From Paenibacillaceae bacterium (GTDB lineage: Bacteria > Bacillota > Clostridia > Lachnospirales > Lachnospiraceae): a stretch of 40,507 nt of DNA. The translations under genes and the position numbers were made by a program. The notes under the pieces were generated by a model. That model worked only from the letters and a program-made list of their open reading frames with translations. It had not been told where the DNA came from and searched no databases. The stretch spans positions 1 to 40,507 of the forward strand of contig SVDS01000029.1 of the NCBI GenBank assembly GCA_015057715.1, read 5' to 3'. Of this stretch, positions 414 through 20,158 are shown one piece after another (the first letter of the stretch is position 1; each line of letters starts with the position of its first letter).

Positions 414-1850
414 ATGTTTGAAGTAGAAAACAGTCCAAAGCGTTATTATAAAGTCATGCACAATTACCAGGAGGCGCAATTGCTTTTTGCTGCAATACGT
501 TTGAATATTTTTTCCTATCTTGATACACCTCAAACTGCACAAACTGTAGCAGAAGCCATCAATTGTGACAAACATCAAATGGAACTCATGCTGTTATCAC
601 TGGTCTCCTGCGGTTTGGTGAATAAACAGGAAGAATATTATAGAAATACACCAGAAACAAGAAACTTTTTATCCCGCAACAGCAATGTGTTTCTTGGTGA
701 TACACTATTATTTCGGGAAAAGATGACCTCTCTTGGGCAACTGGAGGAAAAGATAAAGTCAGTATCATCAGTAAATAACGAGACTTATGATTTTTCTGAA
801 CTTGCCCGTTTGTCTATTCCTGAAATGTACTCTGGACGTGTACAGGCATTTATAAATGAAGTAAACAAGCTGTTTCCTGATAACAATGAATGTCTCAACA
901 TTCTGGATCTGGGAGGCGGAGCAGGCATTCTGGATGTTGAACTGATAAAACATTTTCCAAACAGTAAAGCAACCGTTATGGAAACGCCGGATGTTTCTAA
1001 AGTTACTAAGGAAATTGTAGAGAAATATGGGGTACAGCAAAAGGTTCAGGTGATTTCAGGTGATTTTAATAGTGACCCTTTAGGCGGACTTTATAATATG
1101 ATTATTGCCTCAGGCGTTCTGAACTTTGTTGATGGCGATTTAACTGATTTTATAAAGAAAGTGTCTGATTCGTTAGAGATAGGAGGTTATTTCTTTGTTA
1201 TAGGGCAGTTTGCAGATGAAAAAGACGCTGTTCCTGCAAATATGTTAAGCTGGCTGTCTGGGTTTATGGATGGCATCCCCTTACCTCCTAAAGCTCAGGA
1301 TATTGAAACAGCATTACAAACGTGTGGTCTTACTCTCGCAGACAGGGTGAGAGTTGCTATGTTTGAGGGTTACATTTACCGAAAAGAGGAAAAGAAGGAA
1401 TCTGTGACTTCGAAAGATGTAATTAATTCTTTTATTGAATTAACGGAAAGTATTTCTAATTCTAAAACGAATATTTTAGATTTTGGAAGTGAAGATATGA
1501 CATTTCATCGTGGAGAAATTCACATGATTAAAACAATTGGTGATTATCCGGGAATTCACAGTGCTGAGCTTGCGCGTAAATATGGTATAACAAGACCGGT
1601 TGTTCATAAAACTTTACAGAAATTATCAGAGAGAGATTTGATCGTCAAAAAAGATGATCCGGAAGATAAAAAACGCTATTTACTTTATTTGACGGAAAAG
1701 GGAAATGCTGCCTACAGGGCTCATGAAAAATATCATAATGATAATGATCAATCACTTTTTGATTTTCTGAATGGTACTTCCAGTGAAAATTTAGCAAGTA
1801 TTAAAGGATTTTTAGAACATGCTATAGGTTTAATACAAAATCACTCATAA
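414..1850 (+). CDS. Class I SAM-dependent methyltransferase fused to a MarR-type regulator
   Basis: The 478-aa protein has two parts. Residues 1-90 form a winged-helix dimerisation domain like those of the plant-type/acetylserotonin O-methyltransferase family. Residues 160-325 form a Rossmann methyltransferase whose SAM motif I is LDLGGGAG (164-171). Residues 334-476 are a complete MarR domain: the recognition region is around GIHSAELARKYGITRP (380-395), followed by the D-P-E-D-K-K-R-Y wing (415-422). The family usually O-methylates small, often phenolic acceptors, and MarR proteins often bind phenolic ligands, so one chain may both modify and sense the same compound; this is inference. It is the first gene of the operon, 20 bp before the oxidoreductase gene. 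Acceptor unknown. Confidence 0.88.
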   Translation: MFEVENSPKRYYKVMHNYQEAQLLFAAIRLNIFSYLDTPQTAQTVAEAINCDKHQMELMLLSLVSCGLVNKQEEYYRNTPETRNFLSRNSNVFLGDTLLFREKMTSLGQLEEKIKSVSSVNNETYDFSELARLSIPEMYSGRVQAFINEVNKLFPDNNECLNILDLGGGAGILDVELIKHFPNSKATVMETPDVSKVTKEIVEKYGVQQKVQVISGDFNSDPLGGLYNMIIASGVLNFVDGDLTDFIKKVSDSLEIGGYFFVIGQFADEKDAVPANMLSWLSGFMDGIPLPPKAQDIETALQTCGLTLADRVRVAMFEGYIYRKEEKKESVTSKDVINSFIELTESISNSKTNILDFGSEDMTFHRGEIHMIKTIGDYPGIHSAELARKYGITRPVVHKTLQKLSERDLIVKKDDPEDKKRYLLYLTEKGNAAYRAHEKYHNDNDQSLFDFLNGTSSENLASIKGFLEHAIGLIQNHS

Positions 1851-1870
1851 TCCGAAAGAGGAGAAGAAAA

Positions 1871-2914
1871 ATGTATCCAGATCGTAAAATCATGATTATT
1901 GGCGGGCATGGTAAGGTAGGCCAGTCTATTACGAAAGAACTGAAAAACTACAGTTTGATCCTGGCAGGACGAAACGAAGAGAAAATGAAAAGCTTCATTC
2001 AAAAAGAACAGCTGAAAGCAGAAATCTGCGTAATGGATATTCTTCACATTGATTTTGCACTGTTACAAAATGTAGACTGGGTTATTGTTTGTGTAGATCA
2101 GGAAAATACCCTTCTGGTAGAATATTGTGATAAAAACGGAATCGATTATATGGATGTCACTGCAAATTCAGAATATATTGATAAGATTTGTAAACTTAAA
2201 CTTAAGGGCACAAGCAAAATTATGCTGGGAATTGGTCTTGCTCCTGGACTTACAAATCTTCTGGCAGAAAAATTTGTACAAATGTATCCCACAGAAAAAT
2301 ATATTGATATTCAACTTATTTTAGGGATGGGCGAAAAACACGGAGATGCTGCCATAAAATGGACTCTGGATAACTTTACTAAAAACTACAATCATCGTAT
2401 TCATGGATCTATGAGACCATTTACTAAAAAAAACAAAATGGAGAGCATGCAGAAGCGATTCTATTCGTTTAATTTTAACTTTGTGGACCAGCACATGTTA
2501 AATAATAAATATAATGATAAGATATTTACCACTTATCTGGGATTCGATCAGTCTATTATAACTGTATTCCTATATTGGGCAAACAAACTTGGACTTCTTA
2601 AATTGTTAAAATATAAAAAAGTATATAATATGGCAGAACGACTTCTTAGGAATCCTAAAATTGGTTCTGATATTTTTATCGTGTCTATTCAGTCCGGTAA
2701 TAAAAGCCTGTATGCCTGGGGACATGACGAAGGAAGATTTACCGGACTGATTGCTGCTGAATCAGCAAAGCGAATGGCAGATCCCACATTAAAAAAAGGA
2801 ATTATGGAAATATCAGATATTTTAAATATAGAAGATATCGCAGACAATGATCTGTTTCAGTTAACCCTTCAGAAAACAACAGAGTTTCATATTTCAAAAG
2901 CAAAACATCTATGA
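1871..2914 (+). CDS. Saccharopine-dehydrogenase-like NAD(P)-binding oxidoreductase
   Basis: This 347-aa protein starts with a Rossmann strand and the glycine motif IIGGHGKVGQ (9-18). The D-x-T-A-N-S-E-Y-I segment and the L-G-I-G-L-A-P-G-L-T-N-L segment are typical of the Sacchrp_dh_NADP group. That group includes saccharopine and carboxynorspermidine dehydrogenases as well as many uncharacterised reductases. The C-terminal half is divergent and rich in Lys/Asn/Ile, so the substrate cannot be read from the sequence. A GAGGAG ribosome binding site precedes the ATG. It sits between the methyltransferase-MarR gene and a ketopantoate-reductase-like gene, which suggests a short biosynthetic or detoxifying route. 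By eye it is more AT-rich than genes further right. Confidence 0.82.
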   Translation: MYPDRKIMIIGGHGKVGQSITKELKNYSLILAGRNEEKMKSFIQKEQLKAEICVMDILHIDFALLQNVDWVIVCVDQENTLLVEYCDKNGIDYMDVTANSEYIDKICKLKLKGTSKIMLGIGLAPGLTNLLAEKFVQMYPTEKYIDIQLILGMGEKHGDAAIKWTLDNFTKNYNHRIHGSMRPFTKKNKMESMQKRFYSFNFNFVDQHMLNNKYNDKIFTTYLGFDQSIITVFLYWANKLGLLKLLKYKKVYNMAERLLRNPKIGSDIFIVSIQSGNKSLYAWGHDEGRFTGLIAAESAKRMADPTLKKGIMEISDILNIEDIADNDLFQLTLQKTTEFHISKAKHL

Positions 2915-2968
2915 TAAGATTAATTTTATAGCTTATAATTTGGTAATTTAATTCCAGGGAGGGACAAC

Positions 2969-3901
2969 ATGAACAAAGAAATAAAAAAGACTGCCATCAT
3001 AGGAATGGGTGCACTAGGTATGTTATACGCAAGCCAGATCAGTTCAGCAATTGGACCCGATTCCGTCTATTTTCTTGCTGACCAGAAACGAATCGGGCGC
3101 TATCAGAAATTGACTTTTACAATAAATGGTACACCCTGGTCTTTTCCCATGAAAGCGCCTGAAAATGCAGGTCCAGCAGATTTGATAATTATAGCGGTTA
3201 AATACAACGCCCTGCCATCAGCACTGGATATTATGGCTTCCTCAGTGGGTCCTGATACCACCATAATCTCAGTTATGAATGGGATTGACAGCGAAGCGAT
3301 AGCAGGCAAACGCTATGGAGATGAAAAAGTACTCTATTGTATCGCCCAGGGAATGGATGCCATGAAGTTCGGTGCCGATTTAACCTATACTAAGTTCGGA
3401 GAATTATGTCTTGGCACCAGAATAAAGGGTCAGGAACATCGGCTCGATGCCTTAACCAGATATTTTGATTCCGCCAGTATCTCCTATCGTACCGAGAGTG
3501 ATATTTTAAAACGGCTTTGGGGGAAATTCATGTTAAACGTTGGCATCAATCAGACCTGTATGGCATATGAGGTCAATTATGCCCAGGCTCTTACTCCAGG
3601 TACCCCATACGATACATTAGTCGGAGCCATGAGAGAAGTAATATTACTCGCGCAAAAAGAAGGCATTAACCTGGCAGAAGGCGACCTGGAAGCTTACATA
3701 GAACTCTTAAAAACCCTTTCACCTGAGGGAGTTCCATCCATGCGTCAGGATGGGATCGCCCATAGACCATCGGAAGTAGAGATGTTTTCAGGCACAGTAC
3801 GCAGACTTGCAGCTAAACATAGTCTTCCTGTTCCCATTAATGATATGCTTTATAAAAAAATCAAAGAGATGGAATCCACTTATATTGATATAAATAAATA
3901 A
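2969..3901 (+). CDS. Ketopantoate reductase family protein (PanE/ApbA-like)
   Basis: The 310-aa length is normal for the family. The NADPH motif is IIGMGALGMLYA (10-21). Other family landmarks are AVKYN, the W-G-K-F-M-L-N segment that holds the catalytic Lys, N-x-x-x-A-M/T, and R-P-S-E-V-E-x-F-S-G near the C-terminus. PanE reduces 2-dehydropantoate to pantoate in coenzyme A synthesis. No panB or panC is nearby and the gene sits in an accessory operon, so it may be a paralogue acting on another 2-keto acid; I therefore give no gene symbol. A GGAGGG ribosome binding site lies 5' of the ATG, and the response regulator gene begins 16 bp downstream. Confidence 0.85.
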   Translation: MNKEIKKTAIIGMGALGMLYASQISSAIGPDSVYFLADQKRIGRYQKLTFTINGTPWSFPMKAPENAGPADLIIIAVKYNALPSALDIMASSVGPDTTIISVMNGIDSEAIAGKRYGDEKVLYCIAQGMDAMKFGADLTYTKFGELCLGTRIKGQEHRLDALTRYFDSASISYRTESDILKRLWGKFMLNVGINQTCMAYEVNYAQALTPGTPYDTLVGAMREVILLAQKEGINLAEGDLEAYIELLKTLSPEGVPSMRQDGIAHRPSEVEMFSGTVRRLAAKHSLPVPINDMLYKKIKEMESTYIDINK

Positions 3902-3917
3902 ACGAAAAGGAGTGGGT

Positions 3918-4622
3918 ATGATGAGCGACCGGATTTTACTTTTAGAAGATGACATCAGTTTAGTAGATGGATTGAAATATTCATTAAAGCGCAATGGCTT
4001 TGATGTTGAACTTGTCCGTACAGTAGAAGGCGCCATAGGCTGTTTACCTAAAATCGATCAATATGACTTACTAATCCTTGATGTGACATTACCGGATGGA
4101 ACGGGTTTTGAAGTATGTGAAAAAGTGAGAAAACAGGGATATCAGATTCCGATTCTATTTTTAACAGCTTCCGATGAAGAGGTAAATATCATTCGTGGGC
4201 TGGACAGCGGCGGCGATGACTATGTAACAAAACCTTTTAAACTGGGTGAGCTTTGTTCCCGGATTCGTGCCTTACTGCGCCGGGTGGGAAAATCCAGTCA
4301 AAATAACCTTACCGTAATAGAATGTGGTGATATTTGGATTGACCTTTTAGGAAGCCGGGTGCTGTTAAATGAAAAAACTCTGGATTTAACAAGCGCAGAA
4401 TACCGTCTTATCTGTTTATTAGTAAGAAATTCTAACCGGGTCATTACCCGCAATCAAATTTTAAATGAACTGTGGGACAATACAGGCGATTTTGTTGATG
4501 ATAATACTCTCTCCGTTTATGTTCGCCGACTCCGTGAAAAAATTGAAGCTGATCCTTCCCATCCGGAGCATTTAATCACCATCCGGGGTTTTGGCTATCA
4601 GTGGAATGAGGTATCTGTATGA
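3918..4622 (+). CDS. OmpR/PhoB-type response regulator
   Basis: An N-terminal receiver has the acidic pair E-D-D, the phospho-acceptor in LLILDVTLPDG, the conserved Thr in FLTAS and Lys in VTKPF. A C-terminal winged-helix Trans_reg_C domain ends in R-G-F-G-Y-Q-W. An upstream GTG at 3912 is directly against the AAAGGAG site (3905-3911), so I chose ATG 3918, 6 nt from it; ATG 3921 is also possible. The kinase gene overlaps the stop by 4 bp (ATGA). With the following ABC genes this is the usual sensor/regulator/exporter layout of peptide-antibiotic and envelope-stress modules in Firmicutes. The likely target is the ABC operon just downstream. Confidence 0.92.
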   Translation: MMSDRILLLEDDISLVDGLKYSLKRNGFDVELVRTVEGAIGCLPKIDQYDLLILDVTLPDGTGFEVCEKVRKQGYQIPILFLTASDEEVNIIRGLDSGGDDYVTKPFKLGELCSRIRALLRRVGKSSQNNLTVIECGDIWIDLLGSRVLLNEKTLDLTSAEYRLICLLVRNSNRVITRNQILNELWDNTGDFVDDNTLSVYVRRLREKIEADPSHPEHLITIRGFGYQWNEVSV

Positions 4623-5842
4623 ACCTTTTTCAAGATAAGCAAATCAAACACTATACCATGTTTATTTTAACTCTTGTTTTGCTGATTTTTCTTTCTGTCA
4701 TTGGTTTGAATGCTGTTCTGGTAAAAGCCATGCATGGTCTGTTTCTATCCCACGACAATGCCGTTGTGACTTCTCTTTTCCAACAAGGTGTTTCAAAAGA
4801 TGTAATTGCCAAAGCCATAACCAGTACAGCAAGCAGCCAGGAGGGTGCGACTCTGCTCGCTAATATTGGTGTAACAGAGAATACCGCAATCAGATTTCTT
4901 CCCTTTATTAATGAGTTTCATAAGATTTCCATATACTGTATGCTGCTTTTTAGCGTGATTCTATCCTGTTTGCTTTTGGTTGGATCATTGGTTTTTTTAT
5001 GGAAAAGAGAGCAACTTTATCTGCAGGCTGCAAAGGTAATTACCAATTTTACAGAAGGCGATTTTTCTTACCACATGCCGCAAATGAAAGAAGGAACCAT
5101 ATATCGTCTCTTTGCCTGTGTGGATCAGCTTGCTATGATCCTGCAGTCAAAAAACGAAGCTGAGAAGAAAGCAAAAGATTTTTTAAAAAGTACTATTTCA
5201 GACATATCGCACCAGTTAAAAACACCACTTGCGGCTCTTACTATGCATCATGAAATTATTTCTGAGGAACCGGATCATGTTCAAACCGTAATAGAATACT
5301 CCCAAAAAACAGAATTAGCACTAAAACGTATGGAACAACTGATTCAGGTCATGTTGAAAATAACCCGATTAGACGCCGGCAGTATTGTCTTTGAAAAAGA
5401 AAGCTGTTATTTATCGGAATTAATTGCCCAGTCTGTCAGTGAACTGACAACAAGGGCAGCCCGAGAGGGAAAAGAAATTATTGTAGATGAAGTACCGGAA
5501 GAAAAACTCATTTGCGATAAGCAGTGGACCAGCGAAGCGATTGGAAATATAGTTAAAAATGCTTTGGATCATACCGATTCTGGAGGAAAAATCCGCATTT
5601 TCTGGAAGCGGACTCCTGCCATGCTACGCATCATGATTTCAGATAATGGCTTCGGTATTGCACCGGAAGATTTACATCACATATTCAAACGTTTTTACCG
5701 CAGCAAAAAATCTCTGGATACCCAGGGAATCGGTCTGGGCCTGTCACTGGCAAAAGCCATTGTTGAGGGTCAGGGAGGCATCATCTCCGTTCAAAGCGCA
5801 CTGGAAAAAGGAACCGTTTTTACGTTTTCCTTCCTTACGTAA
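4619..5842 (+). CDS. Two-component sensor histidine kinase (HisKA/HATPase)
   Basis: The 407-aa protein has two membrane segments (about residues 13-35 and 103-127) around an extracytoplasmic loop of about 65 residues. A HAMP-like linker follows. The H-box is D-I-S-H-Q-L-K-T-P-L, and the ATPase domain has N-I-V-K-N-A-L-D-H-T (N box), D-N-G-F-G-I (G1) and G-I-G-L-G-L-S-L (G2). It is translationally coupled to the response regulator. The loop is larger than in classic BceS-type kinases, which have almost none, so direct ligand sensing is possible; that is inference. Confidence 0.92.
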   Translation: MNLFQDKQIKHYTMFILTLVLLIFLSVIGLNAVLVKAMHGLFLSHDNAVVTSLFQQGVSKDVIAKAITSTASSQEGATLLANIGVTENTAIRFLPFINEFHKISIYCMLLFSVILSCLLLVGSLVFLWKREQLYLQAAKVITNFTEGDFSYHMPQMKEGTIYRLFACVDQLAMILQSKNEAEKKAKDFLKSTISDISHQLKTPLAALTMHHEIISEEPDHVQTVIEYSQKTELALKRMEQLIQVMLKITRLDAGSIVFEKESCYLSELIAQSVSELTTRAAREGKEIIVDEVPEEKLICDKQWTSEAIGNIVKNALDHTDSGGKIRIFWKRTPAMLRIMISDNGFGIAPEDLHHIFKRFYRSKKSLDTQGIGLGLSLAKAIVEGQGGIISVQSALEKGTVFTFSFLT

Positions 5843-5911
5843 CTGTAAGCTGTTATTCACCCGATTGTAAGATGTACCTGTTATTCTCTTTTGAAAGGAG
5901 GTGCTAATAAT

Positions 5912-6607
5912 ATGAAGATTTTAGAAGTACGTCATTTATCAAAAACCTACGGAAAAGGTGAAAATCAGGTAAATGCATTAAAAGATGTCTCTTTTACATT
6001 AGAACAGGGAGAATTTGCTGCAGTAGTTGGAGAATCAGGTTCCGGTAAAAGTACGCTGCTTAATTGTATTGGCGCCCTGGATACCCCTACTGCCGGGAAT
6101 ATCTATATGGACGGAAATGATTTATTTTCAATGAAAGAAGAACAGCGTACTATTTTCAGGCGGCGTAATATCGGCTTTGTATTTCAGTCTTTCCAGCTTG
6201 TTGCAGAATTGACTGTGGAACAGAATATTATGTTTCCCATTCTTCTGGATTACAGAAAACCCGATCAATCGGCTGTAAATGAAATTTTAGAAGTCTTAGG
6301 GCTTTCAGAACGCCGCCATCACTTGCCTGGCCAATTATCCGGCGGTCAGCAGCAGCGTGTTGCCATTGGACGTGCACTGATCACAAGGCCAAAACTGATC
6401 CTGGCGGATGAACCCACCGGAAATCTGGACAGCAAAAACAGTCAGGATGTAATTGATTTACTGGTCAGGGCATCCCGCCTTTATCAGCAAACGATTCTTA
6501 TGATTACCCATAACAATCATCTGACCACCTCAGTAGACCGCGTGCTGCGGGTTTCGGATGGTGTTCTGACGGATTTGGGAGGCAAAGAGAATGAAAAGTT
6601 ATCTTGA
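5912..6607 (+). CDS. ABC transporter ATPase, MacB/LolD/BceA type
   Basis: The 231-aa ATPase has Walker A GESGSGKST (40-48), a Q-loop in FVFQSFQL, signature LSGGQQQRVAIGRAL (142-156) and Walker B LILADEP (162-168). An upstream TTG at 5891 would put the AAAGGAGGT ribosome binding site inside the gene, so ATG 5912 is the start. It overlaps the permease gene by 17 bp. The family drives mechanotransmission-type permeases that export or expel peptides, lipids or antibiotics rather than importing nutrients. The C-terminal region has the H-loop ITHNN. Its partner permease is interrupted, so the ATPase may have no working partner here. Confidence 0.92.
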   Translation: MKILEVRHLSKTYGKGENQVNALKDVSFTLEQGEFAAVVGESGSGKSTLLNCIGALDTPTAGNIYMDGNDLFSMKEEQRTIFRRRNIGFVFQSFQLVAELTVEQNIMFPILLDYRKPDQSAVNEILEVLGLSERRHHLPGQLSGGQQQRVAIGRALITRPKLILADEPTGNLDSKNSQDVIDLLVRASRLYQQTILMITHNNHLTTSVDRVLRVSDGVLTDLGGKENEKLS

Positions 6608-7460
6608 CCTTGTTCCCATTTCAGCCAAAGTCCATAAAAGGCAGAACAGAATGTCTGTATTCTGCATTGTCTTAGCAGTGTTTCTAGTCACAACTATTTT
6701 TGGTATGGCCGACATGTTTATACGCAGCCAGATCATGCAGGCCCGTATAGAGGACGGCAATTGGCATGTGATGATCCGAAACATAAATGAAGAACAAGCC
6801 GCCCTGATTTCTGCTCGAGCTGAGGTAACTGCATCTTCCTGGTATGGTGTCCTAAATTACAGAGGAGATCAAGGCTATACTGTATTGGGGAAAAATGTGA
6901 TTGTAATGGGAAGTGATAAAGACTGGATTATGAAAATGCAAACTCAGGACATTCGGGACGGAACGTTTCCACAGAATGACCATGAGGCTATGGTCACCGA
7001 AAACGCAAAGATAATGCTTGGCCTGCAAATCGGAGATTCTATTTCAGTCAATGGACCTGACGGAACCAGCTATGAATTTACCATCTCTGGTTTTACTAAA
7101 AATGCTGCTAAAACAATGAAAGAGGACTCCTACGCAGTTTGCCTGACTACCCAGGCGTTTCGCTCCTTATATCCCGGAGTCTCAAATGGCCAGCCTGCCC
7201 AGTATAACAGCATTTTTTTTGTACAGTTTTCTACTCATAGCAATATACGAAGTACAATTGCCGAGATGAAGTCCCAACTGGGACTTTCGGACGAACAGGT
7301 TTCGGAAAATACGAAGCTGCTGGGCTTACTTGGTCAAAGCGGAAATTCTTTTATGATGCAAATCTATAGTTCTGCTGCTGTTTTATTTCTATTAGTTTTG
7401 CTGGCAGGCATTATGATGATTGCCAGCAGTCTAAACAGCAATGTGGCACAGCGCACGTAA
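6591..7460 (+). CDS. N-terminal fragment of the interrupted permease
   Basis: This 289-aa piece holds the first membrane helix (about 22-44), the large extracytoplasmic MacB_PCD-like domain (about 45-255) and the second helix (about 260-282), then stops in the cytoplasmic turn. If translated alone it would be a two-helix membrane protein without the rest of either FtsX domain and is unlikely to transport. The start ATG overlaps the end of the ATPase gene. Confidence 0.6.
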   Translation: MKSYLDLVPISAKVHKRQNRMSVFCIVLAVFLVTTIFGMADMFIRSQIMQARIEDGNWHVMIRNINEEQAALISARAEVTASSWYGVLNYRGDQGYTVLGKNVIVMGSDKDWIMKMQTQDIRDGTFPQNDHEAMVTENAKIMLGLQIGDSISVNGPDGTSYEFTISGFTKNAAKTMKEDSYAVCLTTQAFRSLYPGVSNGQPAQYNSIFFVQFSTHSNIRSTIAEMKSQLGLSDEQVSENTKLLGLLGQSGNSFMMQIYSSAAVLFLLVLLAGIMMIASSLNSNVAQRT

Positions 7461-7469
7461 TTTTTTGGA

Positions 7470-8951
7470 ATGATGCGCTGTATTGGTGCCACACCAAAGC
7501 AGTTGATGAGATTCGTCCGGAGGGAAGCCCTTGGTTGGTATAGGTTTGCTATACCGCTGGGCATTTCTGCGGGAGCCGTTATCATTTGGATCTTGTGCGC
7601 CTTACTACGTTTTCTCAGTCCGGAATACTTTGCCGAAATGCCTGCATTCGGAATAAGCATACCCAGTATCATGGCCGGTATCTGTGTAGGTATCCTGACG
7701 GTTCTACTGGCGGCTCGTACACCAGCTAAAAGAGCTGCCAGGGTTTCACCACTGGCAGCCGTATCCGGAAATGCGAATTCTCTTCAGCCTGTGCGCAAAG
7801 CCGCAAATACAACACTATTTAAAATTGATACTGCTCTTGGTTTCCATCATGCGAAAGCCAGTAAAAAGAATTTTGTTTTGATGGTAGGTTCCTTTTCACT
7901 AAGTATTACTCTTTTTTTAGCGTTTTCGGTCACAATAAATTTTATGCAACATTCCCTTACTCCATTGAAGCCGTGGACTCCGGATTTATCTATTGTCAGC
8001 ACGGATAATACCTGTTCGATTCGTAGTAGCTTATTGAAAAAACTTAAGGAAAATCCAGCAGTTAAGCAGGTATACGGGCGAATGTTTGCCTATAACGTTC
8101 CGGTTACGGTAAATGGTCAGGAAAAAAAGGTGGATTTGATTTCTTATGAGGAAAACCAATTCAGATGGGCTAAGAATTATTTACTGGATGGATCTTTCGA
8201 TTCCGTCCAACAGAAAAGCAATACCGGATTGGTTGTTTTTAAACCGCAAAATATTATAAAAACCGGAGACACGGCTACTCTGCACATTGGGGGGCAAACG
8301 TCGGATATAAAAATAGTCGGCTCTCTTTCTTCCAGCCCCTTTAACAACGCCCCTGACGTTGGAACAATAATCTGTTCTGAAAATACCTTTCGGCAGCTGA
8401 CCGGCGAAACGGATTATACAATTATCGATTTGAAGTTATCTAAGAATGTGACGGATGCTGATGTTGATGAAATTCATAGAACCGTTGGTACGGATGTCAC
8501 CTTTTCTGATGAGCGCTCCGGTAATCGCAGCGTAATAGGTTCGTACTACTCTTTTGGATTGTTTATCTATGGCTTTATGGCTTTGATTGCTTTAATTACC
8601 ATATTTAATATTGTAAATAGCATTGCTATGAGTGTCTCCTCCCGTATGAAGCAGTATGGAGCATTTCGTGCCATTGGCCTGAGTAACCGCCAGCTGATAA
8701 ATATGATTGTTGCCGAAGCTTCTGCCTATGCGATTACAGGGTGCATCTTCGGCAGTGTTTTCGGATTAATGCTGAATAAGTTCCTGTACGCAAAACTGGT
8801 AACTTCACACTGGGGCGAACAGTGGAATGTCCCATTTATACAAATGGCCATTATCATAACAATTGTCTTATTATCCGTTATCCTGGCTGTACGAGGTCCA
8901 GTAAAACGCATTTGCACTATGTCCATTGCAGATACCATAAGTGCACAGTAA
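7470..8951 (+). CDS. C-terminal fragment of the interrupted permease
   Basis: This piece (up to 493 aa) begins M-M-R-C-I-G-A-T, in the middle of the first FtsX domain, and continues with two helices, a linker, another helix (near N-F-V-L-M-V-G-S-F-S-L-S), a second outer domain and three C-terminal helices ending the second FtsX domain. No ribosome binding site precedes ATG 7470. Translation could only come from coupling to the stop 9 nt upstream or from readthrough. Confidence 0.55.
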   Translation: MMRCIGATPKQLMRFVRREALGWYRFAIPLGISAGAVIIWILCALLRFLSPEYFAEMPAFGISIPSIMAGICVGILTVLLAARTPAKRAARVSPLAAVSGNANSLQPVRKAANTTLFKIDTALGFHHAKASKKNFVLMVGSFSLSITLFLAFSVTINFMQHSLTPLKPWTPDLSIVSTDNTCSIRSSLLKKLKENPAVKQVYGRMFAYNVPVTVNGQEKKVDLISYEENQFRWAKNYLLDGSFDSVQQKSNTGLVVFKPQNIIKTGDTATLHIGGQTSDIKIVGSLSSSPFNNAPDVGTIICSENTFRQLTGETDYTIIDLKLSKNVTDADVDEIHRTVGTDVTFSDERSGNRSVIGSYYSFGLFIYGFMALIALITIFNIVNSIAMSVSSRMKQYGAFRAIGLSNRQLINMIVAEASAYAITGCIFGSVFGLMLNKFLYAKLVTSHWGEQWNVPFIQMAIIITIVLLSVILAVRGPVKRICTMSIADTISAQ

Positions 8952-9020
8952 TAATACGATAAGCCGAACCTCCCATTCGCTACCTGTTATTGGCTTTCAT
9001 TATGAGCAAAAGATAATTTT

Positions 9021-9050
9021 AAAAGGCAGGTTCTACAGAATCTGCCTTTT
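9021..9050. terminator. Bidirectional terminator between the permease and the cupin gene
   Basis: AAAAGGCAG (9021-9029) pairs perfectly with CTGCCTTTT (9042-9050) with a 12-nt loop. It ends in T-runs on both strands. It serves the + strand ABC operon and the convergent - strand cupin gene, which ends at 9055. Confidence 0.8.
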
Positions 9051-9054
9051 ACTT

Positions 9055-10609: not shown

Positions 10610-11431
10610 TTATTGAATTCCCACATCCATGCTTCCAGAGCGAAACCCTTCCAAATCCAAAGTAATATAGGCAAAGCCAAGTTCTTTTAAGTATGAGATC
10701 ACAGCATCCCTGTCATTTAAAACACTGTCAAAAGAATCCTGATCCACTTCAATCCGCACAATATCCTTATGCAGCCGCAGCCGTACATTTCCCTTAAAAC
10801 GTGAGCGAAGGAACTCCTCTCCCTCACCGATTTTTCCTAAAATATCATAATCTATTTCTGTATTATACGGCAGTCTGGTTGCCATACAGGGAGCAGATGG
10901 TCTCTGTGCCACAGAGATTCCATATTCCGCCGCTAATGCCTTTACCTGTGCCTTGGTGATATGAAGTTCTGCCAGAAGGCTGATAATTCCCAGTTCTTTT
11001 AAAGCTTTGATACCAGGACGATACACATGCATATCATCTTCATTGGTTCCATCCATAATAACAGGAATATTTCTTTCCCCTGCAAATTCTTTCAGACTTA
11101 AAAACAACTTTTTCTTGCATAAATAACACCTGTCTACTGGATTGAAACGAATCTCCTCCTGCTCCAGCTCATCTACGGTAATTATTTCGTGGATTCCTCC
11201 CAGCTCTTTTGCCACATTGGAAGCAATTTCAAGATCGCATGATGGATGGAGCCTGCTGTCGAATGTAACAGCATACACCTTTTTTCCTGTCTTTTCCACC
11301 GCTTTTGCTGCAACTTTCAACAGGAGACTGGAATCAACTCCACCGGAAAAGGCAAGACAGATGTCTTCTTTAGCGTACTCGCCCATTGCCTCTTCCAGTT
11401 TTATTCTGAGACTTAATAAGTTTTCATCCAT
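10610..11431 (-). CDS. larE: LarE, sulfur transferase for the nickel-pincer cofactor
   Basis: LarE thiolates the two carboxyls of pyridinium-3,5-bisthiocarboxylic acid mononucleotide synthesis, after adenylation with ATP. The PP-loop is SGGVDSS (29-35). Three cysteines stand out: C102 and C105 in R-C-Y-L-C and C182 in P-S-A-P-C-M-A-T-R. In Lactiplantibacillus plantarum a single Cys is sacrificed, whereas three-Cys LarEs such as that of Thermotoga maritima hold a [4Fe-4S] cluster that carries the sulfur. The pattern here points to the second type. The gene begins 6 bp after larC and belongs to the same operon. Length is 273 aa, normal for the family. Confidence 0.93.
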   Translation of the reverse strand: MDENLLSLRIKLEEAMGEYAKEDICLAFSGGVDSSLLLKVAAKAVEKTGKKVYAVTFDSRLHPSCDLEIASNVAKELGGIHEIITVDELEQEEIRFNPVDRCYLCKKKLFLSLKEFAGERNIPVIMDGTNEDDMHVYRPGIKALKELGIISLLAELHITKAQVKALAAEYGISVAQRPSAPCMATRLPYNTEIDYDILGKIGEGEEFLRSRFKGNVRLRLHKDIVRIEVDQDSFDSVLNDRDAVISYLKELGFAYITLDLEGFRSGSMDVGIQ

Positions 11432-11437
11432 ATGATC

Positions 11438-12808
11438 TTAATCCTCCCTTTGCAGATTCCGGTAAATAGTCTGGTAATCCAGTCCGCTCTTTCGGCACAG
11501 GGCTTTTACACTCTCATATTCCGGATAATAAAATTCCCTGTCTTTATATTTACACACCTTAATCTCTGCTTCTCCCCACTGTGTCATCACTGTTCTCTTT
11601 TCACGAGGCAGAACTGTTCTGTTAACAGGGCATCTTCTTATACCGATGGTTGTGGTCTGAATAAACAGGATCTCTTCCATGGATTCGATCTGGTTTTTTT
11701 TACAGATGACAGAAAGCATATAGGCGGGCCGGTTCTTTTTCATGAAGATTGGTGTATACCAGACATCAGCCGCGCCTGCGTCAAGCAGAGACTCCATAGC
11801 AAGCCCAAGTGCTTCACCGCTGCAGTCATCAATATTGGACTCCAAAACCCACATCTCGTCACCCGCCTGATCTTCCTCCTCAGAAAGAATCATGGCCCGA
11901 AGAACATTGGCCTGCTTAAATTCCTTTTTCCCTGCCCCCATTCCGGTCTTAAGAATCTGACAGGACGCCGGCAGTCTGTCTTCTGTTTTTAAAGCCGCCG
12001 CAATCGCTGCACCGGTAGGGGTAACCATCTCTCCCTCATTATCAGTCAGACGCAGTTTTAAACTATATGCCGATGCGATATTCGCTGTGGCTGGTACTGG
12101 GACAGGAATGACTCCATGCTGGCAGCGTACACTTCCAAATCCCTCAGCCAAAGGTGATACAACGATTTCATCTACTCCCAGATTATCTACACAGACAGCA
12201 ACACTAATAATGTCAATAATGGAATCGATCGCTCCAACCTCATGAAAATGTACCTCTTCCAATGGAATTCCATGAGCTTTGGCCTCTGCCTCCGCTACAA
12301 TATCAAACATCCGTCTTGCCATAGCTTTTACCCGTTCATGGGCTGCCAGACGGTCTATAATTTTATATATATCACTTATGTTCCTATGTTCATGAGGTTG
12401 ATGATTCTCATGGCTGTGGTCATGTTCATGACTATGATCGTGTTCATGACTATGATTGTTTTCATGGCTATGCTCATGATCGTGTTCATGACTATGTTCA
12501 TGTTCGTGTTCATGGCTATGCTCATGGTCGTGTCCATGACTATGCTCATGGCTGTGTTCGTGTTCATGGCTATGCTCATGATCGTGTTCATGGCTATGCT
12601 CATGTTCCGTCTCCAGATGAACATCAAAATCATACGCATCAAGTCCACACTTTTTAGTTCTTCCAAAATGAAGGTGGTATCCACTTAAATTAAGGCTATC
12701 CAGCGCTTTTTCCAGTACTTCTTTATCCGCGCCCAGATCCAGGAGAGCTCCCACCGTCATATCACCGCTGATTCCCGAATTACATTCCAAATATAATATT
12801 TTTTTCAT
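11438..12808 (-). CDS. larC: LarC, nickel insertion enzyme of the NPN cofactor, with a His-rich insert
   Basis: LarC is the CTP-dependent nickel insertase that completes the nickel-pincer nucleotide. The 456-aa chain starts with M-K-K-I-L-Y-L-E-C-N-S-G-I-S-G-D-M (family N-terminus). It continues through H-F-H-E-V-G-A-I-D-S, P-T-G-A-A-I and L-E-S-N-I-D-D to the LarC2 part. The whole gene is one frame; in L. plantarum the two halves are joined by a programmed frameshift. Residues 69-141 contain 35 His among Glu, Asp and Ser, about half of the segment, much longer than a simple His loop. It could store or deliver Ni. larB ends 1 bp upstream. Confidence 0.95.
   Translation of the reverse strand: MKKILYLECNSGISGDMTVGALLDLGADKEVLEKALDSLNLSGYHLHFGRTKKCGLDAYDFDVHLETEHEHSHEHDHEHSHEHEHSHEHSHGHDHEHSHEHEHEHSHEHDHEHSHENNHSHEHDHSHEHDHSHENHQPHEHRNISDIYKIIDRLAAHERVKAMARRMFDIVAEAEAKAHGIPLEEVHFHEVGAIDSIIDIISVAVCVDNLGVDEIVVSPLAEGFGSVRCQHGVIPVPVPATANIASAYSLKLRLTDNEGEMVTPTGAAIAAALKTEDRLPASCQILKTGMGAGKKEFKQANVLRAMILSEEEDQAGDEMWVLESNIDDCSGEALGLAMESLLDAGAADVWYTPIFMKKNRPAYMLSVICKKNQIESMEEILFIQTTTIGIRRCPVNRTVLPREKRTVMTQWGEAEIKVCKYKDREFYYPEYESVKALCRKSGLDYQTIYRNLQRED
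12386..12604 (-). repeat. larC: Coding tandem repeat for the His-rich segment of LarC
   Basis: Imperfect short repeats built on CAT-GAG/GAA-CAT-AGC-CAT units encode H-E-H-S-H-E-H-D-H type runs (LarC residues 69-141). Such a repeat can change length by slippage without leaving frame when whole units are lost or gained, so length variation between strains is expected. Confidence 0.85.
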
Positions 12809-12809
12809 T

Positions 12810-13553
12810 TTATCTTACCGCCAGTCGATTGATCTGTGTCGCAATGTATCCTGCCCCATACCCATTGTCAATATTTACTACAGAAATGCCATTTGCGCAG
12901 GAATTGAGCATAGTTAATAGTGCTGATAATCCATGAAAGCTGGCCCCATACCCCACAGATGTGGGTACCGCTATTACCGGGCATTCCGCTATCCCTGCTA
13001 TGACAGTTCCCAAAGCGCCTTCCATTCCGGCCGCTGCCACGATGCAGTTGGCTCGTCCAATCCGCTCCCGATTGGACAACAGGCGGTGTATTCCCGCCAC
13101 ACCCACATCATAAATCCGATCCACGTAAGAACCGAAGTATTCGGCTGTCTGGGCCGCTTCCTCCGCAACCGGTATATCCGCAGTGCCACCCGTGCAGACC
13201 GCAATGCAGCCTTTTCTTTCTTTATTCTTCCGTTCTACCTTGAGAATTCTCGATATAGGATCGTAGGTAACTTCAGGAACTGCCTCTTTCACTAACTCAA
13301 ACTGTTCTTTCGTGGCTCTGGTCCCCAGAACTTCCCCGTCCCGTTCAAAGAATTTTCTGTAGATCTGCACCAGATATTCATCTGGCTTACCCTGACAGAA
13401 CACTGTTTCCCCAAATCCTGAGCGGAGAGCCCGGTGATGATCCAGTTTGGCATATCCCAAATCTTCATAAGGAAGATCCTTTAAGATCTTTTGTGCCTCA
13501 TCTACCCCCATCTCACCGTTTTTTACCAGGTTAAGCATTTCTTTTATGTCCAT
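12810..13553 (-). CDS. larB: LarB, nicotinic acid adenine dinucleotide carboxylase/hydrolase
   Basis: LarB carboxylates the pyridinium ring of NaAD at C5 and cleaves the phosphoanhydride, the first step to the nickel-pincer nucleotide. The 247-aa length is typical. The C-terminal two-thirds resemble PurE: C-T-G-G-T-A-D, D-V-G-V-A-G-I-H-R, V-A-A-G-M-E-G and P-T-S-V-G-Y-G. The frame also opens at a GTG (13562), but AGGAAAGG lies 8 nt before ATG 13553 and touches the GTG, so I use the ATG. It is followed by larC after 1 bp, so the two are translationally coupled. Confidence 0.94.
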   Translation of the reverse strand: MDIKEMLNLVKNGEMGVDEAQKILKDLPYEDLGYAKLDHHRALRSGFGETVFCQGKPDEYLVQIYRKFFERDGEVLGTRATKEQFELVKEAVPEVTYDPISRILKVERKNKERKGCIAVCTGGTADIPVAEEAAQTAEYFGSYVDRIYDVGVAGIHRLLSNRERIGRANCIVAAAGMEGALGTVIAGIAECPVIAVPTSVGYGASFHGLSALLTMLNSCANGISVVNIDNGYGAGYIATQINRLAVR

Positions 13554-13588
13554 CCTTCTCACCTTTCCTCTGCTGTACCTAAATGCGC

Positions 13589-14107
13589 TTAAAACAGCTT
13601 TTTTAACAGTATATCCCGAATATATCCACCATATTTCTCTTTGGTGAGAACTACTTCATATCCCTGCCTTATTACATTATTTCTGCTATAGTAATTTTCA
13701 GGGTGAACGGTACACATCAGATATTTGTATCCCATTTTTTTAAGATCTGCTTCTCCCTGCTGCATCATGGAATACTGAAGCCCGTTGCCTCTGTAGGAGG
13801 GAAGGATTGCCACTGATTCCATATGTGCTACCTTTTTAAGTTCCTCCTGCGCCAGCCCAATATCCCTGCCTAAATTCTCTTCTTTCATTCCAGGCAGGGC
13901 AACAATAAAAACCCCTGCAACCGCGCCGGAATCTTTTTCCACCGCTTTATATCCCAGGCCGTTTCCTTCTTTCAGGATTCGGGTTGTATATTCGCTGTCA
14001 TCAGCGACAAACCAGTGCTTGTTATCAATGTCATCCCATACTTTTTCAATGATAACCGCCATCATTTCAGCATCTTCACCAGATGCCCGCTCAATATTAA
14101 ATTCCAT
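13589..14107 (-). CDS. GNAT-family N-acetyltransferase
   Basis: The 172-aa protein shows the GNAT acetyl-CoA loop in V-A-I-L-P-S-Y-R-G-N-G-L-Q-Y (R/Q-x-x-G-x-G/A type) and the C-terminal P-E-N-Y-Y-S-R-N-N-x-x-x-Q-G-Y-E segment. The acceptor (amino acid, polyamine, antibiotic or protein N-terminus) cannot be deduced. It lies 35 bp before larB and 14 bp after a 58-aa membrane protein gene, all on the same strand, so it is probably co-transcribed with the lar genes. Confidence 0.85.
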   Translation of the reverse strand: MEFNIERASGEDAEMMAVIIEKVWDDIDNKHWFVADDSEYTTRILKEGNGLGYKAVEKDSGAVAGVFIVALPGMKEENLGRDIGLAQEELKKVAHMESVAILPSYRGNGLQYSMMQQGEADLKKMGYKYLMCTVHPENYYSRNNVIRQGYEVVLTKEKYGGYIRDILLKKLF

Positions 14108-15150: not shown

Positions 15151-15574
15151 GTGGGATTTGAAGAAGTAAATTTCACCACCACCTAATCATTACTATTATA
15201 ATTAAATGAGGCATTAATAACTTTTTTTCTTCCCTCTGCCACATATCTCCGATTTTCTAACCTTCTTTATTCCCGTTAGGGCATATCAGCAATCGGCTCT
15301 TTATCCTTGCCTCGCCGTTATTAACTTGCGTGGCATAGATAAAAACATTTTTCTTCATATGCCCTTTTTCTTCAATTTTATGATCCGTTCTATACTATTT
15401 GAGGCATGGCAGCAAAAAAATGTTTTTCCATGCCCCCTTACCCTGTAACAGCAAAAAATCCCCTGAACATCTCTGTCCTGAGGATTTGAATTTTACAACT
15501 TGAAAGCCTTCACCTTCTTTAATTTTCACTAGCTAAAAATGAATCGCGCCTGGCATATTTTCCATAATATATCG
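15151..15574. other. Intergenic stretch with hairpins and no clear gene
   Basis: I see no convincing gene. GGCATGG (15403-15409) and CCATGCC (15428-15434) form a hairpin with A- and T-runs in the loop. AAATCC-type arms at 15453-15463 and 15480-15486 form a terminator for the sugar ABC operon, listed separately. A 33-codon frame on the - strand (15358 to 15257, MKKNVFIYATQ...) has only a weak AAAAGGGC site 2 nt from its ATG, so I leave it as unproven. Confidence 0.4.
15453..15487 (-). terminator. Terminator of the sugar ABC operon
   Basis: Read on the - strand, AATCCTC pairs with GGGGATT (one wobble) and is followed by a run of six T (AAAAAA at 15453-15458 on +). It lies about 90 bp after the last permease gene. 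Confidence 0.6.
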
Positions 15575-17374: not shown

Positions 17375-18742
17375 TTATTTTTTGAATTCATTTTTTAAGG
17401 TTTCCTGGGAAGAATCAAGGACTTCTTTTACATCTTTCCCATCCTCAAAAATACTGTTTAAGGTTACAGTGCACAATTCATTGTTGATAGAAGGATACTT
17501 CTCATCGGTATACGCTCTTAAAAGTCCGATGCTGTCCTTTGTTTTTAAAAGAGTATCAAAGGGGTAATTGGTAAAAAACTGAATGAACTGGTTATCGGGG
17601 TTCTGGGTCAGGGACTTATCCGTCCACACTGCCGTATTAACAGGATCGAATCCAAGCACATTCCATACTTCACGGTTGGAATCCTCGGAAAGCTTGATAT
17701 AAGCCATTACTTCCGCAGCCAGTTTTGCATTCTTGCCTGATTTTATAATTGCGGTTCCTGTACCGCCTCCTCCGATGGTTGCTACCTCTTTATCATTCTC
17801 ATTCCAGACAGGCACGGTTGAGATGGCAACCTGCTTCTTTAAATCTTTCATGTAGTTTACAAATCTGGAGGTCTGCCAGAACGGCATGATCTGCACGGCA
17901 TACTCTCCTGTATTGTAGGAAGGATAAGCCTCTTCATTATCCGGCTGTCCTCCCGGAACAGTTGCGAAAGCTCCAGTTTCCTGCATTCCTTTTATGTATT
18001 CCAAAACTTCTGTCAGTTCCTTGCTGTTTAAGTTTAAATTTCCTTTTTCATCAACGTAATCTCCGCCTTTTTGAGCAAGCATCAGGTTAACCATCCAGGA
18101 AGCCGATGTCTCCACACAGGAGAAATACTTTCCAGTGGCTTCGTGATATTTCACTCCGGCCTCTTTAAACTGATCCCAGGTTTTGATGTCCTGATAATTA
18201 ATTCCTGCGTCTTTCAACAGCTTTTCATTGTAAAATGCTACTGTAGTACCTACATGGGTGGGAAGACCATATTCCTTTCCATCTTTGGAATAGATTCCAA
18301 GACGGGATTTTACAATATTATCGCGGTAAGGATCGATCACATCATTCAGTTCCATTAATCCGATATTGCCAACCATGAAGGCTGGAAACTTACCAAGCTC
18401 AATGTCCACAACATCAGGTGCCCCTTCTCCAGATTCCAATGCAAGAGACAGCTTATTATGCATGTCATCGTATGGCATATTGCTTAACACCAACTTCACC
18501 TTTTTATCTGGATGTGCCTCATTCCACTTTTCAGCCATGTTAACATAAAAGTCCTGATGCAATTCAATAAATGTCCATACATTTATGGTAGTAACATCGC
18601 TTCCTGCCACCTCCATTGACTTTTTTCCAGCAGAGGCTCCTTTGCTTTCTGCTTCACCTGAACTGCCCTTAGTACTGCAGCCTGCTGCCAGTATCACCGC
18701 CATGGCTGCACATGCAAGAGCCCCCAATACTCTTTTTTTCAT
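17375..18742 (-). CDS. Sugar ABC transporter substrate-binding lipoprotein (SBP family 1)
   Basis: The 455-aa protein has a lipoprotein signal with lipobox L-A-A-G-C (Cys22) and then a Ser/Gly/Lys-rich linker. The rest is a type-1 solute-binding fold beginning T-T-I-N-V-W-T-F-I-E-L-H-Q-D-F. It captures an oligosaccharide outside the cell for the MalF/MalG-type permeases encoded downstream. The sugar cannot be inferred because no glycoside hydrolase is in the operon. AAGGAGG precedes the ATG. The promoter region carries the LacI-type operator described separately. Confidence 0.93.
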   Translation of the reverse strand: MKKRVLGALACAAMAVILAAGCSTKGSSGEAESKGASAGKKSMEVAGSDVTTINVWTFIELHQDFYVNMAEKWNEAHPDKKVKLVLSNMPYDDMHNKLSLALESGEGAPDVVDIELGKFPAFMVGNIGLMELNDVIDPYRDNIVKSRLGIYSKDGKEYGLPTHVGTTVAFYNEKLLKDAGINYQDIKTWDQFKEAGVKYHEATGKYFSCVETSASWMVNLMLAQKGGDYVDEKGNLNLNSKELTEVLEYIKGMQETGAFATVPGGQPDNEEAYPSYNTGEYAVQIMPFWQTSRFVNYMKDLKKQVAISTVPVWNENDKEVATIGGGGTGTAIIKSGKNAKLAAEVMAYIKLSEDSNREVWNVLGFDPVNTAVWTDKSLTQNPDNQFIQFFTNYPFDTLLKTKDSIGLLRAYTDEKYPSINNELCTVTLNSIFEDGKDVKEVLDSSQETLKNEFKK

Positions 18743-18828
18743 GAATGAATCCTCCTTTTTAATTCTTTCTTATCAACACAGATTCTTCCATCTGCATGAT
18801 TCTAAAAAACTCCCCCCAGGGAGGTATT

Positions 18829-18878
18829 GCCGGCTTATTAAACGTTTCATATGTTTTTTGAATAATCCGGCTTTTTTT
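18829..18878 (+). terminator. Inverted repeat enclosing the operator, terminator-like on the + strand
   Basis: GCCGGCTTATT (18829-18839) and AATAATCCGGC (18861-18871) pair with one mismatch and are followed by seven T. On the + strand this would end transcripts running antisense toward the LacI gene. It also places the operator in the loop of a possible cruciform. No + strand gene precedes it. Confidence 0.4.
18837..18850. promoter_or_regulatory. LacI-family operator, copy 1 (sugar ABC operon)
   Basis: ATTAAACGTTTCAT is identical over 14 bp to the site upstream of the lacI-type gene (20223-20236). Its centre TTAAACGTTTCA is an almost perfect palindrome around CG, as usual for LacI-family operators. 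It sits about 95 bp upstream of the binding-protein ATG. Confidence 0.75.
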
Positions 18879-19059
18879 GTGTTTGTTTCTGCTCACGATG
18901 CTTGATTTTCACTAAAATTCATATATATGATTGCATACTAACACATGAAAAGGGTAATGTAAAGTATTTTTGCATAATTTTTAGATGAATTTAAATCGTT
19001 TAACTATGTAATTTTATATAATTTCTTGTTTAATTCTGTCGAATTTTCTTATCAGCGTA

Positions 19060-19101
19060 AAAAAAGAACGTCTGGCTGTGTTAACAACAGATAAACGTTC
19101 T
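19060..19101 (-). terminator. Terminator of the LacI-type regulator gene
   Basis: On the - strand AGAACGT (19101-19095) pairs with ACGTTCT (19071-19065), followed by a run of T (A-run at 19059-19064 on +). It starts 17 bp after the stop codon. Confidence 0.75.
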
Positions 19102-19117
19102 AATAAATACTTAAATT

Positions 19118-20158
19118 CTATTTGATATTTTTCACTGACTTCCGTATCAGAAGCATACATTCCACCGCGCATACATTTTCCTCTGTATGTGCCAGCTCTC
19201 CTCCATTTAACAGCTCTATCATCCACTCGCTGGCCTTATATCCAATATCATGGAGAGGCAGACTGACCGTTGTCAGGGGCGGATGGTAATAGCCTGAAAG
19301 TTCTCTGTCATCATAACCGGCAACAGAGATTTCATTGCCTATGGTCTGTTTTAATTCCTCCACTCTGTCGTAAACCCCGCCTGCCATCAGATCATTCATT
19401 GCAAATATGGCAGAAACTCCTTTTTCAAGAAGTTCAGCGGCGCAGCGGTATCCGGACTCCCTTGTCCAGTCTCCCTCTGCCACAAGACCTGGATCGTAAA
19501 GAATTTTATTCTGGAATAAAACCTGCTGATATCCTACCAGCCTGGCCTGGGCATGAAGACTGTCCGGCTTTCCGGTTATGACCCCCACTTTTTTGTGTCC
19601 CTGATCCAGTAAATACGTTACAATAGCAGCTGCTCCACTGACATCATCTACTACGACGGAAGGGATCTTCCTGCTTTTGGAATACCCGTATGCCATGACT
19701 GCGGGAATGGGCAGGTTATCTGGTATACAATGAATCACACGCTCATGAGCTGCCACGTAGATAATTCCCTCTACCTGCTTTTCCATCAGTTTTTTAATTT
19801 CCTGCCTGACCAGCTCATAATAATCGTCTTTGTTATAGTAAGTATCATTATATTTTTTAAACAGTCTGAGATTGGTTAACAAAATTTGGTATTCCTGCTT
19901 CTGACAATAATCCGTGATTCCGTCAATAATATCCGGTATGCTGAATATAGTCATATCTTCCGCAATTACACCGATGCTTCTGGTTTTCTGCATCTTTAAA
20001 TTTTTTGCTACAATATTGGGCGTATAATTTAACTGTTCTGCCATTTCCAAAACCAGCTTCCTGGTTTTATCACTGGCACCAGGTTTATTATTCAAAATAT
20101 TGGAAACTGTAGCCACTGATACGCCGCAGCATTTTGCCAGCTCTTTAATTGTCGCCAT
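19118..20158 (-). CDS. LacI-family transcriptional regulator
   Basis: The 346-aa protein starts with the LacI helix-turn-helix (T-I-K-E-L-A-K-C-C-G-V-S-V-A-T-V-S-N-I-L, residues 3-22), the hinge helix region around residues 48-56 and a periplasmic-binding-like sensor domain starting T-R-S-I-G-V-I-A-E-D. It should repress the sugar ABC operon next to it until the imported sugar binds. Direct support is the identical 14-bp operator upstream of both genes, which also predicts autoregulation. The two Cys in the HTH (K-C-C-G) are unusual but lie outside the recognition helix. Confidence 0.95.
   Translation of the reverse strand: MATIKELAKCCGVSVATVSNILNNKPGASDKTRKLVLEMAEQLNYTPNIVAKNLKMQKTRSIGVIAEDMTIFSIPDIIDGITDYCQKQEYQILLTNLRLFKKYNDTYYNKDDYYELVRQEIKKLMEKQVEGIIYVAAHERVIHCIPDNLPIPAVMAYGYSKSRKIPSVVVDDVSGAAAIVTYLLDQGHKKVGVITGKPDSLHAQARLVGYQQVLFQNKILYDPGLVAEGDWTRESGYRCAAELLEKGVSAIFAMNDLMAGGVYDRVEELKQTIGNEISVAGYDDRELSGYYHPPLTTVSLPLHDIGYKASEWMIELLNGGELAHTEENVCAVECMLLIRKSVKNIK

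Follow-up and report, generated by a model that had tools for sequence, protein, structure and literature searches.

A methyltransferase-MarR fusion and its neighbours at a clostridial locus: probably three adjacent units rather than one system

The window analysed here is a stretch of 40,507 nucleotides (positions 1 to 40,507 of contig SVDS01000029.1, from a draft assembly of 283 contigs and 5.4 Mb), which carries a run of plus-strand genes at 414-8951. An earlier note had read this run as one undescribed eight-gene system, in which three enzymes make or modify a small compound that is sensed by a MarR domain or a kinase and moved by an ABC transporter. The gene order and families it gave are borne out by the open reading frame list, Pfam, and NCBIfam. 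Unit A (414-2914) comprises a 478-residue fusion of a methyltransferase (MT) to a MarR domain (414-1850, with Dimerisation and Methyltransf_2-like domains over residues ~1-325 and MarR over ~334-478) and a saccharopine-dehydrogenase-like (SDH) NAD(P) oxidoreductase (1871-2914), placed by family search and by its position next to MT and MarR in two relatives (L091, L092). Unit B is an oxidoreductase of the ketopantoate-reductase family (KPR, 2969-3901; NCBIfam and synteny), preceded by a leader (2905-2968) in which scan and conservation point to a promoter-like site at 2911-2939. Unit C is a cassette of a response regulator (RR, 3912-4622; Pfam and synteny), a histidine kinase (HK, 4619-5842; Pfam and hydropathy) with two predicted transmembrane (TM) helices, an ABC ATPase of the LolD/MacB class (5891-6607, start probably ATG at 5912; Pfam and NCBIfam), and a permease in two parts (6591-7460 and 7470-8951). 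All of these features, and those flanking them, lie on the plus strand.

Upstream, the window start cuts what we take to be an ApbE-like gene, whose 3' end lies at 1-252 (open reading frame 43-252) and whose relatives neighbour KPR in other genomes; the fragment has no Pfam or NCBIfam family match at E 0.001. An intrinsic terminator at 278-316 separates it from the fusion gene, and a promoter at 341-370 with two degenerate operator-like palindrome copies follows (334-374; scan and clade conservation). A terminator-like hairpin found by scan closes the run at 9020-9051. Both bounding terminators proposed earlier are thus recovered. The scan alone proves little, with 9 terminator-like sites against 7.4 expected; the hairpin at 278-316 folds in 7/7 clade sequences, with paired stem changes in L007.

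The clade in question consists of the window and six genomes with an MT-MarR at 93-95% (L006-L011, corresponding by position to G014, G021, G013, G024, G007, and G015), making seven genomes in total. Three of the six relatives are named Lacrimispora in their records, and the rest are metagenome-assembled and labelled Paenibacillaceae or Hungatella; we regard the window as Lacrimispora-like. A genus sample of 25 genomes, which takes in clade members, and 397 family genomes were searched, the latter with each protein as query (E <= 1e-25), and stretches of 5-20 kb were fetched around 15 MT and/or MarR loci outside the clade (L031-L038, L091, L092, L128-L132). All genes of the run are under purifying selection in the clade, with mean dN/dS ratios of 0.14 for MT-MarR and 0.13 for SDH (seven sequences each), 0.16 for KPR (six), and 0.11, 0.24, 0.10, 0.13, and 0.17 for RR, HK, ABC, and the two permease parts (five each).

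Three units side by side in one clade

The three units are found together only in these seven near genomes; in every locus fetched outside the clade they lie apart. All eight KPR loci there (L071-L078, of which L078 is a KPR fragment) have lar genes at a distance of up to about 8 kb and lack MT, SDH, and the cassette. In two of them, an ApbE-like homologue of 323 residues stands directly before KPR (84%; G003 in L071 and G016 in L072), and KPR runs toward larE, the larE end in L072 having been read from the DNA. The cassette is complete, in the order RR-HK-ABC-permease, in 5/5 loci outside the clade (L079-L083, from G002, G003, G004, G005, and G016; 71-87%), again with no MT, SDH, or KPR in the 8.6-20 kb fetched. 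This count leaves out six permease relatives at 40-45% (the second copy of G004, and those of G008, G009, G011, G017, and G018); at E <= 1e-60, the C-terminal part of the permease is matched in 16 of the 25 genus genomes. In G005, a single-contig genome, about 1.7 Mb separates KPR from the cassette. The refuting condition set in the earlier note, applied to the loci that were fetched, tells against the single system: neither KPR nor the cassette lies near MT or MarR in any of the 15 loci. What it leaves standing is a smaller association, that of MT and MarR with SDH, which recurs in G168 and G368.

Six of the seven clade genomes have the cassette behind KPR (G015 being read over two contigs, L011 and L084). 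In the seventh, L009, a deletion has fused the beginning of RR with the final 64 permease residues, leaving MT-MarR, SDH, and KPR whole. This genome is L. xylanisolvens ASCUSBR21, and the deletion, from the RR start to permease residue 430, lies at about 13510-13780; elsewhere in the same locus, at 18059-19149, a gene that is presumably MupG-like appears in three abutting pieces by tblastn. In the window itself, a single permease gene of 787 codons, counting the stop, is broken by an in-frame TAA at 7458-7460. Its two parts share one frame, and comparison with the clade copies, together with Pfam for the C-terminal part, shows that they belong to one protein; the gene is uninterrupted in all four copies tested (L006, L007, L008, L010). 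The "ABC pair" of the earlier note is therefore, in its permease part, a single split gene. If the stop is real, it is recent.

The promoter candidate at 341-370 reads TTGACA-18-TAGGAT and is one of seven 10/12 matches in the scan. Promoter-like matches are at chance level overall (31 against 30.3 expected), so the evidence lies in conservation, and here the block is conserved in seven clade sequences. That this one strong promoter serves all the genes is not confirmed, and KPR keeps a promoter-like leader of its own, which tells against it. The site in that leader is also a 10/12 match, and its second hexamer is TATAAT in four sequences (the window, L007, L008, and L010) and TATATT in L006 and G016. 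The leader as a whole is kept in G016 and more changed in G003, two genomes in which neither MT nor SDH separates ApbE from KPR. Judged by its surroundings, KPR has long stood beside ApbE and the lar genes. It matches PF02558 and PF08546 and scores 167.9 bits with the 2-dehydropantoate 2-reductase model TIGR00745 (cut-off 141.35), a subfamily-level model which does not settle its substrate. The window also has a larB-larC-larE-like set at 10610-13562, including, on the minus strand at 11438-12808, what we take to be a LarC-like protein with a His/Glu-rich insert of about 75 residues.

With the parts apart outside the clade, the cassette deleted in L009, and a stop within the window permease, an eight-gene system finds no support, and the locus is probably a mosaic of three neighbouring units. 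Several observations weigh against this. In every one of the seven clade genomes, the three units are, or once were, adjacent. RR starts only 10-30 bp after KPR and has no promoter-like site of its own in the scan, so units B and C probably share a transcript and could have acquired a common role. The stop in the permease comes from a draft assembly, where it could be a sequencing error, and no relaxation of selection is seen in the permease parts. A single integrated system, with the three enzymes supplying a compound to be sensed and transported, could draw on this short gap, on the shared strand and adjacency of all the genes in the clade, and on purifying selection on every one of them, but it is rejected on synteny, helped by the L009 deletion, the split permease, and the separate KPR leader, and is very improbable. 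The appearance of unity may instead have come from two separate units lying next to an ApbE-KPR locus in one clade, and a false system can be removed. In the simplest history, MT-MarR-SDH would have entered between ApbE and the KPR leader, where unit A now sits, and the cassette would have settled behind KPR, the old member of the ApbE-lar neighbourhood; units A and C would thus have been inserted here rather than lost elsewhere. Only unit A is possibly a new module, with B and C as ordinary neighbours.

For unit C, Pfam recognises the response regulator, the histidine kinase, the ABC ATPase, and the MacB_PCD and FtsX parts of the permease. MacAB-type exporters have the MacB ATPase and permease in one chain with the MacA adaptor beside it. 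The cassette departs from this, in that its ATPase and permease are separate genes and its region (3912-9051) holds no extra plus-strand open reading frame of adaptor size. BceRS-BceAB-type cassettes share with unit C a response regulator, a kinase, an ATPase, and an FtsX-type permease (PMC12484072, PMC5985334), and here too the two-component system is encoded beside the transporter. However, the BceAB permease has 10 TM helices with one extracellular domain of 200-250 residues between TM7 and TM8, and the loop of its partner kinase is about 25 residues (PMC12484072). By hydropathy only, the intact permeases of L006 and L082 have eight TM clusters and two large outer stretches of ~220 and ~200 residues, and the kinase loop, between TM helices 16-34 and 109-127, measures ~75 residues. 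BceAB membership was rejected on this predicted topology. From its family, a role of the cassette in envelope or peptide stress may be proposed.

The methyltransferase-MarR fusion and its dehydrogenase-like partner

Both halves of the fusion are recognised within a single reading frame in the window. The MT half scores 47.2 bits with PF00891 (gathering score 22.3) and 47.1 with PF08100 (25.6), which places it in Methyltransf_2, and the MarR half scores 35.6 with PF12802 (27) and 30.3 with PF01047 (24.6). The closest solved relatives of MT are DSYB (7wdq, E 6e-17) and HIOMT (4a6d, E 1e-12); together with BchU they match the window protein in the Dimerisation domain and in domain order. It differs from them in the MarR domain fused at its C-terminus and, from HIOMT, in a position of likely catalytic weight. 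In HIOMT-type O-methyltransferases, the His of the LHxW motif is the catalytic base; the His of this stretch (LHDW in HIOMT) aligns with Asn237 in the window MT and with Asp in unfused relatives, making ordinary O-methylation by that base doubtful. The best NCBIfam match of the MT half is the BchU model TIGR02716, at 40.7 bits and thus far below its cut-off of 276.1. In trees, the fused forms make one group in both halves (support 96/99 for MT and 100/100 for MarR), so the fusion probably arose once; the branches of G841, G870, and G368 are long and uncertain. The MarR half was matched in 6/341 and 4/321 sampled genomes of the class.

SDH contains the PF03435 NADP-binding domain (29.3 bits against a cut-off of 25.1), which all ten aligned members match (E up to 0.01). 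It shares this domain and a G-x-G-x-x-P-G-x-T-N stretch with the saccharopine and carboxyspermidine dehydrogenase superfamily (8h4z, 8deb), which its profile reaches at E 4e-9 and 3e-7; this reach suggests at most a reductive coupling, or its reverse. Unlike those enzymes, the protein is only about 340 residues long, and the C-terminal domain PF16653 has no match in the window SDH and is matched in just one of the ten aligned members (E 0.004). An AlphaFold2 model built from seven near-identical sequences had a mean pLDDT of 38.1 and was not used.

The pairing of the two genes recurs in two other genera. In G168 (L091), a fused MT-MarR (69%) is followed by SDH (60%), and in G368 (L092), MT, MarR, and SDH stand in that order as three separate genes. 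On this gene order MT-MarR and SDH form a true unit. In the 397 family genomes, SDH is found in five and MT in four, all four among the five, and G022 carries both on different contigs. Against the pairing, seven of the nine SDH loci fetched outside the clade have no MT nearby, a count that does not take in the SDH neighbourhood of G023. Within the genus sample, MT/MarR is matched in 15 of 25 genomes: ten have a full-length SDH and no importer adjoining MT-MarR, four have an adjoining importer and no full-length SDH, and G010 (67% complete) has neither beside MT/MarR. A strict alternation of SDH and importer was rejected, as a related importer (58-59%) lies elsewhere in the genomes G021 and G024 and SDH is present without MT in G002; mutual exclusion of the two partners is thus a tendency at most.

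Further SDH relatives were seen in other settings. In G004, whose MT and MarR are importer-linked, an SDH relative at L067 9479-10312 is similar over residues 7-226 only and is probably truncated. Plasmid searches returned 36 records, all below 60% identity, of which four regions were inspected. Two Enterococcus regions have no methyltransferase or MarR among their annotated genes, in a Haloarcula region a gene annotated as a SAM-dependent methyltransferase (not compared with MT) lies four genes downstream of the SDH relative, and a Niallia region carries no annotation. Upstream of the G168 MT-MarR, an unrelated-looking regulator/kinase pair lies on the opposite strand (L091 5090-7064).

A MarR regulator beside a small-molecule oxidoreductase recalls the clostridial bilQRS genes, which are the MarR BilQ, the reductase BilR, and the flavodoxin-like BilS (PMC10769871). 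Unit A differs in having enzymes of other families, methyltransferase and SDH, and a MarR domain fused to the former. The BilQ model NF045593 gives the window MarR half 38.8 bits against a cut-off of 125, and the FabT model outscores it. Among licensed PMC papers, the listed titles and abstract beginnings yielded no description of a methyltransferase-MarR unit, with or without SDH. Unit A thus stands as a real small unit and possibly a new module, undescribed within the literature searches made.

Operator-like repeats and a possible control of unit A

The clearest operator-like sites are found outside the clade, at unfused MT genes. In seven of nine such loci (G001, G004, G011, G022, G023, G368, G907), two copies of TGTATRCTTGRCATACA, each with 0-2 mismatches, precede MT at a spacing of 28 bp; the first holds the -35 hexamer TTGACA and the second overlaps the -10. 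Of the other two loci, the operon of G841 begins with importer genes and a single copy (1 mismatch) stands ahead of these, and in L130 (G870) no site is found even when 3 mismatches are allowed. At the ten fused promoters (seven in the clade, G017, G008, and G168), the best pair is 24 bp apart, with summed mismatches of 6-11. In the window, the two copies lie at 334-350 and 358-374, overlapping the promoter, and their score of 8 was reached in 0/500 shuffles of the window promoter; the promoter hexamer itself contributes to this score, and the mixing quality of the shuffle is unchecked.

In a search of 12 genomes, sites with 0-1 mismatch occur as pairs at the MT promoter in 6/6 unfused genomes (G001, G004, G011, G022, G023, G368) and elsewhere as singles in G002, G004, G011, and G017, those of G004 and G011 having 1 mismatch. 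Such a distribution fits a mostly local auto-repressor, and MarR control of the MT-MarR/SDH unit is plausible on these repeats. It is less comfortable that the copies are weak in the fused lineage (summed mismatches of 8 in the clade, 6 in G017, 8 in G008, and 11 in G168), that the G168 value of 11 was reached in 1/500 shuffles, and that with up to 2 mismatches the 12 genomes hold 60 sites against 27 for a reversed control. The MarR half would most likely close its own promoter by binding the palindrome pair that covers the -35 and -10. A small ligand, probably a substrate or product of MT, would release the MarR half, and MT and SDH would then modify the ligand compound.

Partners and possible compounds of unit A

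With its MarR-fused enzyme, recognisable operator, and differing partners, unit A offers direct handles on the compound that these anaerobes process. Among the 15 MT/MarR loci outside the clade, SDH adjoins in two, while seven (L031, L032, L036, L037, L128, L130, L131) adjoin an importer made of a Peripla_BP_2 binding protein, a FecCD-type permease, and an ATPase. A binding protein alone adjoins in L129, and five loci have neither SDH nor importer (L033, L034, L035, L038, and L132, which is near a contig end). L130 has MT without MarR, and L131, L132, and L038 have MarR without this MT. The G017 permease scores best with the BtuC model, below cut-off.

In one of these loci, L131 of G821, an operator copy precedes a cobalamin riboswitch (RF00174, 100.5 bits, 1488-1670) and then a nitrogenase-like operon, which encodes a NifH-like protein, a pair of NifD/K-like proteins, the importer, a short methyltransferase of another kind, and MarR. 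The NifH-like protein scores 333.7 bits with CfbC (cut-off 402) and 322.5 with NifH (cut-off 394.35), both below cut-off. From the operator-like site through MarR, this gene run (L131 1472-9175) is a candidate operon for tetrapyrrole uptake and reduction.

Two readings of the compound may be set against these partners, neither of them likely. In the first, which is tentative, unit A handles a tetrapyrrole- or metallophore-like compound that is imported and modified where the partner is of the Fec/Btu type, or modified inside the cell where the partner is SDH. It draws on the importer families and their nearest permease model, on the operator copy, riboswitch, CfbC-nearest NifH-like protein, and NifD/K-like pair of G821, and on BchU, a tetrapyrrole methyltransferase, as the best model for the window MT half and the only NCBIfam match of the G841 MT at E 1e-6. 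But the G821 methyltransferase is different and shorter, its NifH-like protein fits NifH nearly as well as CfbC, and the riboswitch occurs in this one locus, with none at gathering score in L031, L032, L036, L037, L128, L129, or L130. Moreover, L3 glutamine methyltransferase is a better-scoring model than BchU for the G004 MT, the G001 MT has no match at 1e-10, FabT stands above BilQ for the MarR half, and no relative of the importer's binding protein is found in G168 or G368 at 1e-10, the best in the window genome being 27% identical. The pointers toward tetrapyrroles are weak, and several come from a single locus.

Detoxification is another possibility, and an unlikely one as well. Noxious phenolic or similar compounds are common targets of MarR regulators and Methyltransf_2 enzymes. 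The MarR half might sense such a compound and MT and SDH inactivate it, with importer-linked relatives reusing the regulator differently. The operator-like repeats over the -35 and -10 fit tight auto-repression, but the commonest partner is the importer-type set, in 7/15 loci, and the motif His of HIOMT is Asn or Asp in these proteins. As a tentative lead, unit A would be a self-repressed module that handles a tetrapyrrole- or metallophore-like compound. In the boldest form of this idea, which is rather doubtful, MT-MarR would be the hub of an undescribed clostridial module for the uptake and remodelling of such compounds, its operon opened by a substrate or product of the fused enzyme and its partner being either importer or SDH. 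Opine-type metallophore synthesis, considered from the presence of SDH and importer, was not adopted.

Some importer-linked and neighbouring loci carry additional genes. At L036 8728-12236 and L130 5089-8524, an ABC half-transporter pair, about 50% alike between the two genomes, accompanies the importer and MT; we take it to resemble siderophore-type IrtAB/YbtPQ pairs. A c-di-GMP-I riboswitch (65.4 bits) lies just downstream of the importer genes in L036, at 15304-15390. At L033 5662-9208, and also in L034 and L035, a regulator that looks PadR-like by eye, a 4Fe-4S membrane protein, and a flavodoxin stand upstream of MT and MarR.

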